Shown here: in pieces, positions 601 to 11,593 of the stretch | Position numbering within the stretch: the stretch's first letter is position 1 | Layout of the letters: the number at the start of each line of letters is the position of its first letter | Origin: Candidatus Fermentibacterota bacterium | GTDB lineage: Bacteria; JAFGKV01 | DNA: 12,063 nucleotides | Reading direction: 5' to 3' | Assembly: GCA_016928395.1 (NCBI GenBank) | Contig: JAFGKV010000102.1 | Span: 1 to 12,063, forward strand | The notes under the pieces: model-generated | Seen by the model: only the letters and a program-made list of their open reading frames with translations | Databases searched by the model: none | Told to the model about the DNA's origin: nothing | Position numbers and translations under genes: made by a program

Positions 601-678
601 ATGCATGCCCAACCACATCGGGGCGCGAGGGGGGCAAAGGCGCGACCACCCCTTCCATCCGGGCTCTGCCCATCATGA
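601..678 (+). CDS. Putative 25-aa leader peptide coupled to the ECF sigma gene
   Basis: A 26-codon frame, rich in Arg, Pro and Gly, starts at the ATG at 601 behind a strong purine-rich site (GGAGGAG, 584-590, 10 nt upstream). It stops at TGA 676-678, which overlaps the sigma-factor ATG (675-677) as ATGA. The sigma gene has no recognisable ribosome site of its own: the 20 bases before 675 are C/T-rich. The only strong site nearby serves this short frame. That arrangement fits translational coupling by termination-reinitiation, so the peptide may matter less than the act of translating it. The composition is not that of a signal peptide and shows no run of a single amino acid that would suggest attenuation. 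A chance frame in GC-rich DNA is possible. Confidence 0.4.
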   Translation: MHAQPHRGARGAKARPPLPSGLCPS

Positions 679-1217
679 ACACCGCGTCAGATGCCTCATT
701 GGTGGCACAGTGTCTCGACGGCAGGCGGGAAGGATACGCGGAGCTGGTGCGCAGGTATCAGGGGCCTGTGTTCGGTCTGGCGTATCGAATGACGCGCAGC
801 CACGAGGATGCCGAGGATCTGGCCCAGGAGACCTTCATCCAGGCATATCGAAAGCTCCAAAGCTATGACACGGCGTATCCCTTTCGCGCCTGGGTGTTGC
901 GCATTTGCGCCAATCGAGCCAAGAACCGGTTTCGGAGCACCGACCGCCGTCGCAGGGCCGAGGAAGCCCATGTCGAGATCCATCCGCCGGACGCCGGGGC
1001 CATGGAGCCCGATCTCGTTGCCCTGGATGAAGCCATCGCCCGAATACCCCAGATGCTCCGTATCCCCCTGGTGCTCAAGCATGTAGAGGGATTGCCGTAT
1101 GAAGAGATCGCGCAGGTGCTCGGCATCGGCATCAGCGCGGCCAAGATGCGGGTGAAACGAGGCAGGGATGAACTGGTCCGGCTGCTTCATCCCGAATCAG
1201 GGAGGGTTACCCAATGA
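675..1217 (+). CDS. ECF-subfamily RNA polymerase sigma factor
   Basis: This 180-residue protein has the two-domain layout and length of an extracytoplasmic-function sigma factor, which directs core RNA polymerase to specific promoters. Region 2 spans about residues 19-86, with the core-binding helix DAEDLAQETFIQAYRKL (45-61) followed by FRAWVLRICANRAKNRFR. A charged linker rich in Arg and Glu follows. Region 4 spans about 118-172, with IPQMLRIPLVLKHVEGLPYEEIAQVLGI and the recognition helix AAKMRVKRGRDEL. The frame is open back to 468, but the added residues are Pro/Arg/Gly-rich and unlike a sigma factor, so ATG 675 is the start. It lacks its own ribosome site and overlaps a short upstream frame by ATGA. 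Its stop overlaps the next start (1214-1217), so sigma and putative anti-sigma are translationally coupled. It probably controls its own operon, although I could not identify a convincing ECF-type promoter upstream. Confidence 0.95.
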   Translation: MNTASDASLVAQCLDGRREGYAELVRRYQGPVFGLAYRMTRSHEDAEDLAQETFIQAYRKLQSYDTAYPFRAWVLRICANRAKNRFRSTDRRRRAEEAHVEIHPPDAGAMEPDLVALDEAIARIPQMLRIPLVLKHVEGLPYEEIAQVLGIGISAAKMRVKRGRDELVRLLHPESGRVTQ

Positions 1218-1798
1218 AGGGGAGTAAGGAACACGTTCACAGGATGCTGGATGGAGATCCGGCCGCGTCAGCAGAACTCTCTCCTGACCAAACTGAAGAA
1301 CTCGCCACGTATGCGAAGGCCCTGCGGGGGCTGGAAACGGCACGCGTGTCGGTGCCCCCGGGCTTCACCGAGCGGGTCATGGCGGTGCTTCCCGAGAGTA
1401 TCGATGTGCCTTGGGGCGAGAGGATCAGATCGTTGTGGCCGGGGCAAGGCAGATGGGTCATCCCTGCCGTGGCCGGCGCCATGGCGACTGTGCTGTGTGC
1501 TTTTGGTGTGCCTTTGATCACAGGAGGCACGAACCGCCCCGTGGAGGTGACGTTTGAGCTGCATGCACCCGACGCGCGGAGCGTGGAGCTTATCGGCAGT
1601 TTCAACGGATGGAGGAGGGGAGAAGCCGCCCTCCAGGGACCTGACGCCACAGGACACTGGTCAGTGACCGTGCCACTTGATCCCGGCAGGCACGAGTACC
1701 TGTTCGTCATCGATGACCGGCAGATGGTGCCGGATCCTTCGGCTTCGCTGTATCGTCCAGATGGTTTCGGCCGCACCAACGCGGTCATCGACATCTAA
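1214..1798 (+). CDS. Membrane-anchored putative anti-sigma factor with external CBM48 glycogen-binding domain
   Basis: The protein has 194 residues. The start is fixed by GGAGG (1201-1205) and the 4-bp ATGA overlap with the sigma gene. Residues 1-75 form a helical cytoplasmic segment (HRMLDGD, then DQTEELATYAKALRGLETARV, then PPGFTERVMAVLP). This resembles anti-sigma domains in size and pattern but lacks the zinc-binding HxxxCxxC motif. One transmembrane helix spans about 81-102. Residues 109-194 form an AMPK/isoamylase-type carbohydrate-binding module (CBM48): VELIGSFNGW (124-133), GHWSVTVPLDPGRHEYLFVIDD (147-168, quoted in two parts below), and the closing PDP...G..NAVIDI. The aromatic residues of that family are present at Trp133 and Trp149. 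The key pieces are GHWSVTVPLDPG and RHEYLFVIDD. Family knowledge says such modules bind alpha-glucans or act as protein-interaction modules. I infer that the external module senses a ligand or partner and releases the sigma factor. Ligand and mechanism are unknown. Confidence 0.85.
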   Translation: MKGSKEHVHRMLDGDPAASAELSPDQTEELATYAKALRGLETARVSVPPGFTERVMAVLPESIDVPWGERIRSLWPGQGRWVIPAVAGAMATVLCAFGVPLITGGTNRPVEVTFELHAPDARSVELIGSFNGWRRGEAALQGPDATGHWSVTVPLDPGRHEYLFVIDDRQMVPDPSASLYRPDGFGRTNAVIDI

Positions 1799-1811
1799 GG
1801 GGGTATCAACC

Positions 1812-2603
1812 ATGCATATGTCACGAATGACGCGGGCCGTGCTCCTCATGTGGGGTGTTGCCATCACGGTGTCTACATCCGCCGGAGACACCGTCCCCAC
1901 TGACTGGCCGGCGCTGCAGAGCCTGTGTGAGGAAGCCGGCCTCGACGCCACGCCGGTCCGAGAGATCTTCAGGCATTGCCAGCGAGAACGCATCGGTATC
2001 GGCGATGCCCACGCAATGCTGGGATGGGCGATTGAAGCCTCGCGCGAGGAGTTGCCGGCGCGTCCGGTCATGGCGAAGATCGTCGAGGGGCTGGGGAAGG
2101 GAGTGCCGCCCGAGGACATCGCGGAGGTGTCACGGCAAAGGGTTCGGCATCTCTACCGAGCCAGGGAGATCATTAGGGCGGCGGACGGACGGCTGGCTGT
2201 CGAGCCGGTGATCGTCGCCGGGGCCCAGGCCATGGAGAGCGGCGTGAGCGAGGATGCGGTACGAGTCGTGGTGGAGGCGGGGCGCGATAGCAGGGCGGGA
2301 GATCTCCAGGCTCTGCTGGAGGCCGGCGAAGAGCTCTATCTGGCGGGATTCGGTTCCGAGGATATCCCCCCGATGCTGATCGATTGCCTGCAGCGGCGCC
2401 TGAATCGTGTCGAACTCAGGAGAGCGGTTCGGTATGCCTGTCAGCAGAGGCAGCGGGGTATGGAGCCTCGTAGGATCCGCCAGGCGCTGTGGGGGGGAGA
2501 ACAGGGTTCACAACAGCAGCACCAAAACCGCGAGCACAATGGCCAGGGCGGCGGGATAGGGCCTGGCCCCGGCGGGCCGCGCCACGGACGCGGTAGGCCG
2601 TGA
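1812..2603 (+). CDS. Exported helical-repeat protein with Gly/Gln/His/Arg-rich tail
   Basis: The protein has 263 residues. The start is ATG 1812, behind AGGGGG (1798-1803) and 13 bp after the putative anti-sigma stop. The N-terminus is a signal peptide or signal anchor (MTRAVLLMWGVAITVSTSAG). Residues 30-228 look almost wholly helical and contain about five degenerate units of the form Gly-hydrophobic-x-x-(E/D)-(D)-(I/A): IGIGDAHAM (61), KGVPPEDIAEV (96), ESGVSEDAVRVV (142), LAGFGSEDIPPML (178) and QRGMEPRRIRQAL (214). The last 35 residues are low-complexity, rich in Gln, Gly, His, Arg and Pro, and probably disordered. The stop overlaps the next start as GTGA (2600-2603), which ties it to the beta-barrel gene. 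I do not recognise a family. Its place between a sigma/anti-sigma pair and a likely outer-membrane protein suggests a periplasmic adaptor, which is inference only. Confidence 0.8.
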   Translation: MHMSRMTRAVLLMWGVAITVSTSAGDTVPTDWPALQSLCEEAGLDATPVREIFRHCQRERIGIGDAHAMLGWAIEASREELPARPVMAKIVEGLGKGVPPEDIAEVSRQRVRHLYRAREIIRAADGRLAVEPVIVAGAQAMESGVSEDAVRVVVEAGRDSRAGDLQALLEAGEELYLAGFGSEDIPPMLIDCLQRRLNRVELRRAVRYACQQRQRGMEPRRIRQALWGGEQGSQQQHQNREHNGQGGGIGPGPGGPRHGRGRP

Positions 2604-3544
2604 GACCCTTCGGGGGGCCGGCGCGCTGCATCATCATGGCGGGCGTTTCCATAGGCCGATGTCTTGCTGCCGAGATCTACCTTTCACCACAGATCGAGAC
2701 ATCGGTCGGTTACGATTCGAACCGTTTCCAGATGGAGGCAGGTGCCGGCTCGGCCTACGGCGTTCTGATGCCGTCAATCGATATAACTTCGTTCATCTCC
2801 TCCACCGTTGAGCTGCAGGCCGCCTTGGCGTACCAGAAGAGGGGCTTTCTAAGGGAGGGATTCTCCCATGCAGAGCATGCCAGTGGAATTCTCGGTCTCT
2901 GGCATGCAGGCGCGTGCTGGGAGGGAGGAGTGTCGTTGGCTGCTGCCCGGACCCGTGACGCAGCCATTCCCGAGGACGATCTGGCCCGCGGCGGGTTCTC
3001 TGCGGGGCTGACATACAACGACCTGGCCGGGAGGCGCTACGAGTTTGCAGGCGCACTGGAGAGGGTCGCGTACGATTCGGCGGAAGACGAGGACGGGAAA
3101 TCGGTGACGGGAACGCACTGGCGTCTGAGGCCAGCCGTCAGGCTTCCTATCGGTCCGGGAGTCTTCTTGTGGGGTGAGCCCGTCGCTGAGGGGTTCACCT
3201 GTAATGACCCTGGCAGGGAGTACACAGGGTGCGGGATCAGCCTTGGGTTGGACTACTCGCCGCCGGCTCCCCTGCGCGCAGGTGTGTCAGTGGACTTGGG
3301 TGTCCACGATTATGCGAACCCTGCTGACGCTTCTCTCTCCAAGACGGATGCCACGGCGCGATCATTCACCCTGTGGTGCGCGATGCGAACCAGTGCCCGG
3401 GCCGAGTTGTTCGCCGACCTGCAGGGAGGGACGTTCTGGAGCGACGACACTACAACGAACTATGGCCGATGGCAGGGGCGATTGGGAATTCGTCTACGGC
3501 ACGATGCGGAGATAGGCCCGCTGCGCCGCTTTGCCGGGGGGTGA
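2600..3544 (+). CDS. Putative outer-membrane beta-barrel protein
   Basis: The protein has 314 residues. GTG 2600 overlaps the upstream stop by 4 bp. An internal ATG at 2636 (residue 13) is an alternative start, but the region from residue 8 to 24 (RCIIMAGVSIGRCLAAEIY) serves as the export signal either way. The mature protein has the alternating polar/hydrophobic pattern and aromatic-Gly turns of a transmembrane barrel. It opens with YLSPQIETSVGYDSNRF, typical of the first strand of barrel proteins. Further strand-like segments include TVELQAALAYQK, GFSAGLTYN, YEFAGALERVAYD, HWRLRPAVRLP, GISLGLDYS, AGVSVDLGVHDY, AELFADLQGGTFW and the closing WQGRLGIRLRH. The very end (IGPLRRFAGG) does not finish on an aromatic residue as many barrels do. 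As the last gene of the ECF operon it is the likely surface component. Substrate and function are unknown. Confidence 0.75.
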   Translation: MRPFGGPARCIIMAGVSIGRCLAAEIYLSPQIETSVGYDSNRFQMEAGAGSAYGVLMPSIDITSFISSTVELQAALAYQKRGFLREGFSHAEHASGILGLWHAGACWEGGVSLAAARTRDAAIPEDDLARGGFSAGLTYNDLAGRRYEFAGALERVAYDSAEDEDGKSVTGTHWRLRPAVRLPIGPGVFLWGEPVAEGFTCNDPGREYTGCGISLGLDYSPPAPLRAGVSVDLGVHDYANPADASLSKTDATARSFTLWCAMRTSARAELFADLQGGTFWSDDTTTNYGRWQGRLGIRLRHDAEIGPLRRFAGG

Positions 3545-6070: not shown

Positions 6071-7162
6071 TTAGGGAAGATCAAGCGTCATCGTCCTCAC
6101 CTTGGGTAGGATTGTGGCGGAGTCAGGCTGGGCACCCTCTTCCTTGGGGACCACCAGTAGCGCAGGCGTTGCGTCATCCTCCAGATCCAGCCCATCGCGG
6201 TAGAGCGCGAGAATGACTCCGTCTTCGCCGTCAAGATCGCGGGAGTCGAGCCTCACCCTTCTCCCATCGGCATCCCCTACCTCGAGGGAGTACCCGCTGA
6301 TGGCGAGGTCCTGCCGGTAGGAGCGGATGGCACTGTCCTGCCGGTGGGGAGCATACAGCGAATCGTCGGAAAACGCCAGCAACCTGAACACCGGAACGCC
6401 CCAGTACTCAGATGAGTCGGTCCCCGAGGCCACGCGTACGCGGGCTCCGTGGCAGCTGGCGCAGCTCTGAAGGGTTTGGCGATCAACGTCAATCTGCATC
6501 CTGCCACGCATGGCTATGGCATAGGGTTGCGCGGGAACCCCGGTGATGCTGATACGACTGAGCCGCTGCACCGAGAGATGACCATCGACCATGGGTGTTG
6601 AGGGCCCCACCTTGATCGCCCGGACCAGCCCCATCGCGGCCGGCATGGGGGTGCCATCCCGAAGCATGGCCAGTATCCAGGTGCCCTGGCTTCGATCCAG
6701 GATTTCACGTCCTGAAAAGGCCATGCGATACCCGTCGTCGGCGGCGAAGGTGAGGGAGTGGTCGTCCTCAAGCCCGGCCCACTGCAGCAGGAGATCCGGC
6801 AGGCTAATGCCGGCCCATGTACCCGTGATCGCGTTCCCCGTGGTGGTGGTGAAGCCCCCCGGCCCTTCCACGCAGAAAGGTGACGCGGCAAGCTCGGCAA
6901 GTGAGATTGACAAGGTGTCTCCCGGCCGGGCCAGCATAAGAACCCACGGGGAGAGCGGGGAGTCCCTCAGTGCCGCGTCGAGAATGACAGAGCATGCCGT
7001 TCCGGAGGGTTCCGGGATCACCAAGGATGCTTCCTCTGCTTCGCGACCGAGCACAGCACCGGCCGTGCCGTCTGATGAGCTGCCAGAGAGCACGGCGGTT
7101 TGAGGCAGCACCGCCAGAAAGAGAAGGAAACCACTCAAAGAGGGAGGGGCGCATCTGCGCAT
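6071..7162 (-). CDS. Exported sulfite-oxidase-like (molybdopterin-type) protein with a central CXXCH haem motif
   Basis: The protein has 363 residues. The start is ATG 7162-7160, 8 nt after GGAGG (7175-7171 on the minus strand); the frame is open further upstream but without a ribosome site. A signal peptide covers about 1-26 (SLSGFLLFLAVLPQTAVLSG). Residues 75-208 follow the Oxidored_molyb pattern: FCVEG with Cys97 at the expected place of the molybdenum-ligand cysteine, TWAGISLPDLLLQWAGL (115-131), FAADDGYRMAFS (139-150), ILAMLRDGTPMPAAMGLVRAI (163-183) and a closing SVQRLSRISITG. C234-ASC-H238 is a single c-type haem attachment site. Residues 250-363 repeat the same pattern (YWGVPVFRLLAF, GYSLEVGDADGRRVRL, ILALYRDG, PALLVVP) but without a counterpart to Cys97. 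The likely role is periplasmic electron transfer or oxidation-reduction. Whether it binds a molybdenum cofactor is uncertain, because key contacts cannot be judged by eye. Confidence 0.7.
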   Translation of the reverse strand: MRRCAPPSLSGFLLFLAVLPQTAVLSGSSSDGTAGAVLGREAEEASLVIPEPSGTACSVILDAALRDSPLSPWVLMLARPGDTLSISLAELAASPFCVEGPGGFTTTTGNAITGTWAGISLPDLLLQWAGLEDDHSLTFAADDGYRMAFSGREILDRSQGTWILAMLRDGTPMPAAMGLVRAIKVGPSTPMVDGHLSVQRLSRISITGVPAQPYAIAMRGRMQIDVDRQTLQSCASCHGARVRVASGTDSSEYWGVPVFRLLAFSDDSLYAPHRQDSAIRSYRQDLAISGYSLEVGDADGRRVRLDSRDLDGEDGVILALYRDGLDLEDDATPALLVVPKEEGAQPDSATILPKVRTMTLDLP

Positions 7163-7197
7163 TGGGGGTACCTCCACAAGAACGTATGGTATGGCCA

Positions 7198-7214
7198 GCC
7201 GGGCCGAGCCCGGC
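7198..7214 (-). promoter_or_regulatory. GC-rich hairpin in the 5' leader of the haem/molybdopterin-type gene
   Basis: A perfect 7-bp stem (GCCGGGC / GCCCGGC) closes on a 3-nt loop. It lies 22 bp upstream of the GGAGG ribosome site of the minus-strand gene. If transcribed it would form in the leader RNA. No T-run follows, so it could be a structural or regulatory element, or simply GC-rich sequence. Confidence 0.25.
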
Positions 7215-7346
7215 CAAGACGAAGCGAGGAATAGCACCTGCTCCCGAGGGAAGGGTGAGGGTCTGAGTGCGATCGATGTGTACTCTGGGCACGGGATCTC
7301 TGTGTCGTACCCGAATCGCGGTATTCAAGGGTTGCGCGGATTCTCC

Positions 7347-9574: not shown

Positions 9575-10219
9575 GTGGACAGGGATCAGGAACGACGACT
9601 CGTCAAGGCCGCCCGAAAGAACCCCGAGGCATTCGGGGCGCTCTACGACGAGTATGCCGGGAGGATCCTGTCGTACACTTACCGTCTTCTGGGCTCCTTC
9701 GCCGACGCGGAAGAGGCCACCTCGGAGACGTTCTACAAGGCGATTCTCGGCATTGGCCGCTTCAGGTGGAGGCCCTGTGGGTTTCTACCCTGGCTCTACC
9801 GGATCGCCTCGAACGAGTCCGTGAATGTGCAGCGCCGGAGGGCCAAAGGCGCCGAGAGCCCTCTGTTCGAGAGGCTGCCCGGGCCGGTGAGGGATGAGCT
9901 GGAACAGAAAGAAACGGTCGAGTCGGGGCATGAGTTGGCGAAAGCCCTGGCGAGAGCTCTTGCCCAGCTTGACCCCCGCGATCGTCAGATCGTGACGCTC
10001 CACTACTTCCAGGGCGAGACCTACGCGCTTATTGCCAGGTCAACCGGCGTCAAGGAGAGTGCACTACGCGTCAGGGCCATGCGGGCTTTGCGCAGGCTGG
10101 AGCAGATACTCGAGAAGGAGGGCTGGAACCATGGAAGGGCACACGATGCAGGGTGGGCTGCCGGCGTCGATGGATGCGCCGAAGTTCCAGGCGTACCTGA
10201 GACAGCAGCTCATCTTTGA
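9575..10219 (+). CDS. ECF-subfamily RNA polymerase sigma factor, second locus
   Basis: The protein has 214 residues and starts at GTG 9575 behind GGGAGAG (9564-9570). Region 2 covers about 18-88 with DAEEATSETFYKAILGIGRF and FLPWLYRIASNESVNVQRRR. Region 4 covers about 122-182 with ALAQLDPRDRQIVTLHYFQG, ETYALIARSTGV and the recognition helix ESALRVRAMRALRRLEQIL. Residues from about 184 to 214 are a Gly/Ala-rich extension unlike normal sigma tails. They are encoded where the next gene has already begun (overlap 10131-10219, 89 nt), so this tail may be a by-product of the overlap. It is only distantly similar to the sigma factor at 675 and likely recognises different promoters. The downstream one-TM protein is the presumed partner. 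Confidence 0.93.
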   Translation: MDRDQERRLVKAARKNPEAFGALYDEYAGRILSYTYRLLGSFADAEEATSETFYKAILGIGRFRWRPCGFLPWLYRIASNESVNVQRRRAKGAESPLFERLPGPVRDELEQKETVESGHELAKALARALAQLDPRDRQIVTLHYFQGETYALIARSTGVKESALRVRAMRALRRLEQILEKEGWNHGRAHDAGWAAGVDGCAEVPGVPETAAHL

Positions 10220-10634
10220 ACATCAGCGCGTGAGCCTTGCGCGCTCCCGCAGGAATTGGCGGATGACCGCGCTGGTCGCCGTTGCCGTGTGTGTGGTCAG
10301 CATCGCGCGGCCCGGGATTCCCCACAGGGCCCGCGAATCCATGGCCGTGCTCCTCGGATCGCCCCACGGCCAGCCTGATGTGGAGTTGGCGTACCGCGAC
10401 GACTCCGTTCCCCTTGAGCATGCCCTGGCTGCGAGCCTGGCGCAGGACCGTGCCCTGGCCAGGCGGCTGGGATCGGGGCACGTCCTTGGGGCGCGTGCCC
10501 CGGAGCATACGTTCGTTGTCAGCAGGTTCCCCATCTCAGGAGGACGGGCGGTGAGCATCTATACGCCGCTCTCGAGCCCTCGACAGGATGGGGAGAACGA
10601 TGTCGTTTTCGCACATGATGGAGGTGTATGGTAA
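10131..10634 (+). CDS. Single-pass membrane protein, putative anti-sigma factor
   Basis: The protein has 167 residues. The start is ATG 10131, 8 nt after the strong AAGGAGGG (10115-10122) inside the sigma gene; ATG codons at 10146 and 10173 are possible alternatives. The layout is a short basic, helical cytoplasmic part (KFQAYLRQQLIFEHQRVSLA, ending RSRRNWR at 38-44), one hydrophobic helix (about 45-60, MTALVAVAVCVVSIAR), then about 105 extracytoplasmic residues without cysteines. The positive charges just before the helix predict an inside N-terminus. There is no HxxxCxxC zinc motif. Position and topology suggest an anti-sigma factor, but the cytoplasmic segment is short and no family is recognised. 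Its TAA (10632-10634) overlaps the PDZ gene's ATG by one base, so the two are co-translated. Confidence 0.72.
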   Translation: MEGHTMQGGLPASMDAPKFQAYLRQQLIFEHQRVSLARSRRNWRMTALVAVAVCVVSIARPGIPHRARESMAVLLGSPHGQPDVELAYRDDSVPLEHALAASLAQDRALARRLGSGHVLGARAPEHTFVVSRFPISGGRAVSIYTPLSSPRQDGENDVVFAHDGGVW

Positions 10635-11593
10635 TGCAACGCACACTCACTGTACTGGTACTCTGCGCCGCTCTTTTCCCCTTCGGGGTATCGGCCGGAG
10701 AAGGTGCGCATCTCGGGGTTATGCTCGGCTCCCTGGAAGATCTCGCCCAGAAGTTCGACTATGACGGCCGAGGTGCGCCAGTCGTCGAAGTGGTCAAGGA
10801 CGGCCCCGCGGCCAAGGCCGGGATGAAGGATGGGGATGTCATCATCGCCATCGACAAGGATGCCATTGTGGGGCCGGGGCATCTCAGGGAGGTGCTGAGC
10901 TTCCGCAGCCCAGGCGACAAGGCCCAGGTCACCGTCTGGCGCAAGGGAAAGAAGGAGACGCTGCACGTTGAGCTGGGGGAACGAACGAAGCTCCACCTCC
11001 TCGACCGCAGCGACTTCGCCAAGACCATTGTCATCAGCGGCGAACCCACGGCGTGGCTTGGGATACGAACTCAGGAGTTGTCCGAGCAACTGGGCGAGCA
11101 CTTCGGGGCCAAGGCGGGGGTGCTGGTCTCTGAGGTCATTGAGGACAGCCCCGCGGCCAAGGCAGGAATCGCCGCAGGAGACGTGATTGTCAAGGTGGGC
11201 GAAGAAACGGTCTCCCAGCCCTTCGAGCTGACCAAGGCCCTCGGAGACCGGGAACCCGGCCAGAAGATCACCCTTGTGCTCATCAGGCAGGGCAGGGAGT
11301 TGACCAAAGAGGTCGAGCTGGGGGAGACACCGAAGGAGTATCGCAGGGGGCGCCCTCAAGTCTTCAGGTGGAAGTCCGGCGATGAGGGAGGCAGCGACTG
11401 GAGTTTCTCTTTGCCCCGAGACCTTCCTCCGGGGGCCCTTCCGGGTATGGACTGGCTCGAGCTTGACGCGCGGGTAGACCGTGAGGAGCTGCAGAAGGAT
11501 CTGCAGGAACTCCGGGAGACTCTGAGCGAGCAAATGAAGGACATCCGTGCCGAGCTGGACGAGTTGAGGAAGAGTCTGAAGGCGCAGGACTGA
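10634..11593 (+). CDS. Secreted double-PDZ protein with C-terminal coiled coil
   Basis: The protein has 319 residues. I chose ATG 10634 over the in-frame ATG at 10628 because GGAGG (10620-10624) is 9 nt from the former and only 3 nt from the latter. A signal peptide covers about 1-22 (TLTVLVLCAALFPFGVSAGE). PDZ1 spans about 26-113: HLGVMLG as the binding-loop start, then VEVVKDGPAAKAGMKDGDVI and AIDKDAIVG. PDZ2 spans about 138-228: AWLGIRTQELS, then VIEDSPAAKAGIAAGDVIVK and VGEETVSQ. A Pro/Gly/Trp-rich linker follows (235-275), then a charged heptad-like helix (281-316, EELQKDLQELRETLSEQ and onward), probably an oligomerising coiled coil. No protease domain or Ser-His-Asp triad is present, unlike DegS or HtrA. 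In this operon it may sense C-terminal peptides of misfolded envelope proteins and signal to the membrane partner, which is inference. Confidence 0.88.
   Translation: MQRTLTVLVLCAALFPFGVSAGEGAHLGVMLGSLEDLAQKFDYDGRGAPVVEVVKDGPAAKAGMKDGDVIIAIDKDAIVGPGHLREVLSFRSPGDKAQVTVWRKGKKETLHVELGERTKLHLLDRSDFAKTIVISGEPTAWLGIRTQELSEQLGEHFGAKAGVLVSEVIEDSPAAKAGIAAGDVIVKVGEETVSQPFELTKALGDREPGQKITLVLIRQGRELTKEVELGETPKEYRRGRPQVFRWKSGDEGGSDWSFSLPRDLPPGALPGMDWLELDARVDREELQKDLQELRETLSEQMKDIRAELDELRKSLKAQD

Follow-up and report, generated by a model that had tools for sequence, protein, structure and literature searches.

The window examined here is the entire 12,063-base contig G000:C133 from a Candidatus Fermentibacterota bacterium, and it carries a tight block of four genes that, judged by sequence and predicted structure, is one copy of a recurring bacterial signalling module. 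The block encodes an extracytoplasmic function (ECF) sigma factor, an anti-sigma factor with a single transmembrane (TM) helix and an external CBM48 domain, an exported helical-repeat protein whose family is uncatalogued and a probable outer-membrane beta-barrel. The reading preferred here, put forward tentatively, is that of a transmembrane sigma/anti-sigma switch whose CBM48 domain would dock to a periplasmic partner, perhaps the product of gene 3; starch or glycogen is probably not the signal of the module. The features on which this reading is built are the following.

675 to 1217, + strand: gene 1, ECF sigma factor with regions 2 and 4 (Pfam/NCBIfam; start codon placed from the start of the domain)
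1214 to 1798, + strand: gene 2, predicted anti-sigma factor of 194 amino acids, in which a class I anti-sigma domain precedes a TM helix and an external CBM48
1214 to 1438, + strand: class I anti-sigma domain of gene 2, residues 1-75, zinc-less variant with the helix-4 motif VPPGFTERVMAVLP
1454 to 1510, + strand: single TM helix of gene 2, residues about 81-99 (AlphaFold and sequence)
1538 to 1795, + strand: CBM48 / AMPK-type glycogen-binding fold of gene 2, residues 109-194 (Pfam, structure alignment)
1812 to 2603, + strand: gene 3, exported helical-repeat protein, uncatalogued family
2046 to 2117, + strand: signature of the gene 3 family, LPARPVMAKIVEGLGKGVPPEDIA
2496 to 2600, + strand: disordered C-terminal tail of gene 3, rich in Gly, Gln and Pro, which recurs in many relatives
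2600 to 3544, + strand: gene 4, probable outer-membrane beta-barrel

Organization and recurrence of the operon

The four genes occupy positions from about 675 to 3544 of the + strand and are joined by ATGA at 1214-1217, by 13 bases at 1799-1811 and by GTGA at 2600-2603. The genes, their order and these junctions had been described in the initial annotation and proved exact on re-examination; the block was then given as 601-3544, of which the end holds and the start lies slightly early, since the sigma factor most likely begins at the ATG at 675 (the mechanically called open reading frame begins at 468). Gene 1 matches the Pfam families Sigma70_r2 (1e-19) and r4_2 (1.5e-11), and its nearest families in NCBIfam are SigW and RpoE.

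A profile search with locus follow-up was carried out in 386 genomes, almost none of which shares a rank below domain with the window. A sigma factor gene placed directly upstream of a gene for an anti-sigma, TM and CBM48 protein was found in at least 28 of them, belonging to 21 family groups, a lower bound because few candidates per genome were scored. The named loci come from Gemmatimonadota, Thermodesulfobacteriota and metagenome-assembled genomes (MAGs) labelled as Pseudomonadota, labels that may be wrong. The initial annotation had made its proposal hinge on conservation of the four-gene order, and the order of sigma factor, anti-sigma factor, gene 3 and barrel does recur, for example in G267 (L068), G069 (L067) and the MAGs L101-L103. 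No copy was seen in the two nearest genomes, of the same genus and the same family (G001 and G002), so the system is patchy.

Forty-five systems, all with the sigma factor directly upstream and all found via their CBM48, were compared. In a mirror-tree test the pairwise distance correlations between the parts ranged from 0.62 to 0.80, which indicates that the parts are co-inherited, as expected of a unit. In the sigma factor tree those of the systems group beyond what is seen in shuffles (6 changes vs 15), a grouping that does not demonstrate a single clade. Two related genomes carry a gene resembling PHP-type phosphoesterases directly upstream of the sigma factor (L062 6159-6917 and L065 6293-7015).

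The anti-sigma domain of gene 2

The N-terminal segment of gene 2 is well supported as a class I anti-sigma domain with an anti-sigma role. A profile (A5) built from 15 N-terminal segments of related systems was searched against all PDB sequences, and its top match was RsiW (5wuq, 1e-16), followed by RsrA (7.5e-5), DdvA (3e-4), ChrR (1.4e-3), the Mycobacterium tuberculosis anti-sigma factor 3hug and RseA (0.029). The segment of the window taken alone gave no significant PDB match, and the family profile was needed for these relationships to appear. Alignment of the domain with RsiW by hhalign reached a probability of 98%, with the helix-4 motif VPPGFTERVMAVLP of the window at the position of EAPADFTANVMAKLP in RsiW. 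Binding of gene 2 to its own sigma factor would follow from its membership in this family.

The zinc-finger family zf-HC2 is matched by 8 of the 15 A5 segments, and the Hx3Cx2C zinc motif, absent from gene 2 of the window, is present in L069, L070, L075 and L105. This motif is optional in the class, being carried by about 56% of class I anti-sigma factors, and zinc-less forms are common (PMC7406223). In the AlphaFold model the domain is made of helices 2-12, 16-20 and 24-42 and a separate helix 51-58, and the TM helix spans residues 82-96. Basic residues on the N-terminal side of the TM helix place the C-terminus outside. The cytoplasmic anti-sigma-like segment, the single TM helix and the external module that had been read from the DNA of the window are thus borne out by the profile search and the topology.

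The external CBM48 domain

The external part of gene 2 passes the curated Pfam cut-offs for AMPK1_CBM (9e-9) and CBM_48 (5e-8), and AlphaFold models it as a beta-sandwich at residues 110-194 with a predicted local distance difference test (pLDDT) of about 96. Residues 105-194 superpose on the glycogen-binding domain of AMPK beta (4yee) with a Z score of 13.4 and a deviation of 1.7 Å over 84 residues, and the assignment of residues 109-194 to a CBM48/AMPK-type domain, already proposed in the initial annotation, is confirmed.

Four residues of AMPK, W100, K126, W133 and N150, are those we take, from the 1z0n structure, to contact the glucan. In the window Trp133 and Asn189 correspond to W100 and N150 and are kept, and Leu163 and Met171 replace K126 and the AMPK W133, respectively. 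Across the 45 systems W100 is invariant (45/45) and K126 absent (0/45), the AMPK W133 is kept in 24 and N150 in 27, and 44 have Phe or Tyr at position 146. Relatives such as L067 and L101 retain both tryptophans. Plasmid records gave four Vibrio matches, confined to the CBM48 part. Databases presumably label such CBM48 proteins as "isoamylase early set domain" proteins.

Some probable cytoplasmic regulators also end in a CBM48 domain, namely GGDEF proteins (L014, L017, L099) and a ParA/MinD-like ATPase (L009).

Gene 3 defines an uncatalogued family

Gene 3 begins with a signal-peptide-like sequence, and its AlphaFold model is an all-helical repeat with a pLDDT of about 97 over residues 31-220, in keeping with the exported helical-repeat protein first described. 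It has no Pfam match, and for the family as a whole no convincing relative was found in Pfam, NCBIfam or PDB. The downstream genes of related systems share the signature LPxxPLxxKxxEGxxKxxP, and a profile built from 19 relatives with the window left out recovers gene 3 of the window (97.6 bits, E 4e-32); by this measure gene 3 is a member of a new, uncatalogued family. Structural comparison (Foldseek, VIA-align) returned mostly designed helical repeats, with a best Z score of 9.4, and was uninformative as to its identity. No Pfam match to the MucB/RseB domain was obtained in gene 3 or in five relatives, and the model is all-helical.

A profile made from the window and the named loci, searched in the 386 genomes, gave 23 matches in 19 of them, and every one of the 23 adjoins a CBM48 gene. 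At one locus (G307:C33) gene 3 adjoins the gene of a CBM48 lipoprotein and a sigma factor gene is lacking, which argues that gene 3 tracks CBM48 and not the sigma factor. Within 4 kb of the 45 systems, gene 3 was found in 35.

Several other exported proteins accompany related loci. In two Pseudomonadota MAGs a further exported protein that resembles gene 3 but is shorter is encoded downstream of the operon (L101 5602-5964 and L103 9011-9610), and small exported Gly/Ser-rich proteins, similar to the Gly-rich gene 3 tails of their own genomes, lie directly upstream of the sigma factor in two loci (L077 4289-4660 and L080 6017-6505). In Thermodesulfobacteriota loci (L106 4775-5770 and L108 7122-8084) the place of the barrel after gene 3 is taken by an exported tetratricopeptide repeat protein whose end is OmpA-like and, next to it, a low-complexity exported protein.

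Gene 4 and second copies of CBM48

The product of gene 4 is probably an outer-membrane beta-barrel. It has a likely signal peptide and more alternating strands than expected (z 3.4), and its match to BBP2_2 (E 0.014) falls below the cut-off, so that the barrel-like character given to it in the initial annotation is the weakest part of that description, upheld by the strand pattern and not by the Pfam match. The corresponding barrel of L101 matches DUF2860 over its cut-off.

A second CBM48 is encoded in the operon in 19 of the 45 systems, in eight of them on or with a barrel-like protein. It is placed at the C-terminus of barrel-like proteins in, for example, L084 (over the Pfam cut-off), L109, L114, L115 and L191, on lipoproteins in, for instance, L063, L068 and L192, and on soluble exported proteins in L101-L103. 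One type of module is therefore carried both by the inner-membrane anti-sigma factor and by probable outer-membrane partners.

Proposed mechanism and what the external domain may read

In the switch tentatively preferred here, the sigma factor would at rest be held to the inner membrane by the anti-sigma domain, and CBM48 would dock in the periplasm to a product of its own operon. The likeliest partner would be gene 3, alone or assembled with the CBM48 that a barrel or lipoprotein bears. Gene 3 would then act somewhat like RseB on RseA, and the switch would report the state of that assembly in the envelope or at the surface. Undocking may open the anti-sigma factor to regulated proteolysis, and the freed sigma factor would direct transcription of its own operon and of other surface genes. 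The second of the two options offered in the initial annotation, a module that binds protein and controls the expression of surface genes, fits the predicted features better than the first, a sensor of alpha-glucan. A more doubtful extension would see an envelope-spanning system, present in several phyla, in which the inner-membrane CBM48 and those of outer-membrane proteins or lipoproteins share gene 3 as partner, a fold of glycogen metabolism having been turned into a protein-docking part of a sigma factor relay.

Several observations weigh against docking to gene 3. Ten of the 45 systems have no gene 3 match in the 4-kb scan, among which at least L082 does have gene 3 in a further locus scan and some loci are truncated or masked. 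G117 and G381 encode other helical proteins, and hhalign did not link that of G381, the one tested, to gene 3. The partial correlation between CBM48 and gene 3 given the sigma factor is 0.27, vs 0.62 between sigma factor and gene 3 given CBM48, so that co-evolution does not set the pair of CBM48 and gene 3 apart. The operon of the window itself has no second CBM48. Finally, W100, N150 and the AMPK W133 are kept often enough, as counted above, for sugar binding to stay possible.

That last point bears on the option first proposed, in which glycogen, starch or maltodextrin would bind to the external CBM48 and thereby free the sigma factor, as on RsgI. The fold is a genuine CBM48/AMPK one, with its invariant W100 and nearly invariant aromatic residue at position 146, and RsgI anti-sigma factors bearing carbohydrate-binding modules offer a precedent (PMC12203970). 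GH13 genes are numerous in the genome of the window, and L194 932-3379 (G000:C232) encodes an exported protein of GH13 type that carries CBM48, so a lineage-specific use of glucan is possible. However, the window has Met and Leu for the AMPK W133 and K126, the latter lost in every system, and GH13 (PF00128) is found in 19 of the 28 module genomes, vs 257 of the 386 sampled (68% vs 67%). Nine of the 28 have no GH13, seven of these nine being at least 95% complete, and no GH13 match was seen inside the operons examined. Since two of the four AMPK contacts compared are lost in the window and GH13 is not enriched, alpha-glucan sensing is not favoured as a shared function, and as the general role of the module it is unlikely.

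Unlikely as well, and a little behind, is a reshaped CBM48 groove that reads a different glycan, for instance capsule, O-antigen, exopolysaccharide or peptidoglycan made by the cell itself, which the barrel and gene 3 would help to export or display. Such a role would suit a groove that keeps W100 and gains an aromatic residue at 146 while the residues specific for alpha-glucan drift, and neighbours that are exported and barrel-like; yet no glycan-synthesis cluster stands consistently beside the operons, in loci for which no systematic search for such genes was made. Improbable is a CBM48 that serves as a passive cap over a protease site, general envelope stress signalling through the protease and genes 3 and 4 being mere targets. 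In favour of it, the related RseA is under the control of stepwise proteolysis (PMC8103513); against it, all 45 systems retain the CBM48 type (by which, though, they were found), and both the adjacency of gene 3 to CBM48 without a sigma factor and the duplication of CBM48 on probable outer-membrane partners are more than a neutral cap requires.

Comparison with known systems

The module resembles SigW/RsiW of Bacillus subtilis and RpoE/RseA in that an ECF sigma factor adjoins a class I anti-sigma domain followed by one TM helix, and the helix-4 motif of RsiW closely resembles that of the window. RsiW and RseA differ in their external parts, in the place of which the window has CBM48, together with an additional conserved gene 3, a barrel and a zinc-less domain. 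The RpoE-RseA-RseB operon of Escherichia coli likewise encodes a sigma factor, an anti-sigma factor and an exported protein, RseB being an operon-encoded brake on RseA, to whose external part it binds (PMC8103513). That operon has no barrel or CBM48, and gene 3 of the window is an all-helical repeat without similarity to RseB.

With SigI/RsgI of Clostridium thermocellum the module shares an anti-sigma factor that joins a TM helix to an external module of carbohydrate-binding type (PMC12203970). RsgI pairs with a SigI sigma factor, carries a CBM3, CBM42, PA14 or GH10 module beyond the cell wall and has an autocleaving periplasmic domain, whereas the window combines an ECF sigma factor, a class I anti-sigma domain and a CBM48 that probably lies in a periplasm. 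Membership in the SigI/RsgI class was rejected, ECF regions 2 and 4 and a class I anti-sigma domain being found instead of a SigI sigma factor and an RsgI N-terminal domain. FecI-FecR-FecA signalling was rejected too, with no Pfam match to FecR or to a TonB-dependent receptor with signalling domain, either in genes 2 and 4 or among those relatives that were scanned. Compared with the glycogen-binding domain of AMPK beta (1z0m, 1z0n, 4yee), the external domain of the window has the same fold (Z about 13) and keeps W100 and N150, but it lies outside the cytoplasm on an anti-sigma factor and has lost K126 and W133.

Anti-sigma factors are a main bacterial route for sensing the outside, and the signal of most of them is not known. 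Sigma/anti-sigma switches are familiar; what is new here is an external CBM48 variant with a new partner family, a well-studied fold paired with a tightly linked protein family that recurs across phyla. The signature of gene 3 can serve as a name tag for locating the system in annotated genomes, in which gene 3 is assigned to no family. No paper on the combination of CBM48 with an anti-sigma factor was found in the open-licence PubMed Central literature, a scope outside which the 2021 ECF re-classification paper falls.

Other observations

Elsewhere in the window, a second ECF sigma factor is encoded at 9575-10219, followed by a TM-like protein without Pfam match at about 10056-10634 and an exported protein with two PDZ domains at 10628-11593; the region 9575-11593 may be another sigma/anti-sigma operon, in this case with a PDZ effector. 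On the - strand, positions 6071-7237 encode an exported protein with weak similarity to molybdopterin oxidoreductases and a haem-type CxxCH motif. In two of the genomes surveyed, GH13 genes (G245:C1:630232-631620 and G372:C1:430683-432071) contain 9 and 10 in-frame TGA codons, respectively, an indication that G245 and G372 use TGA as a sense codon.

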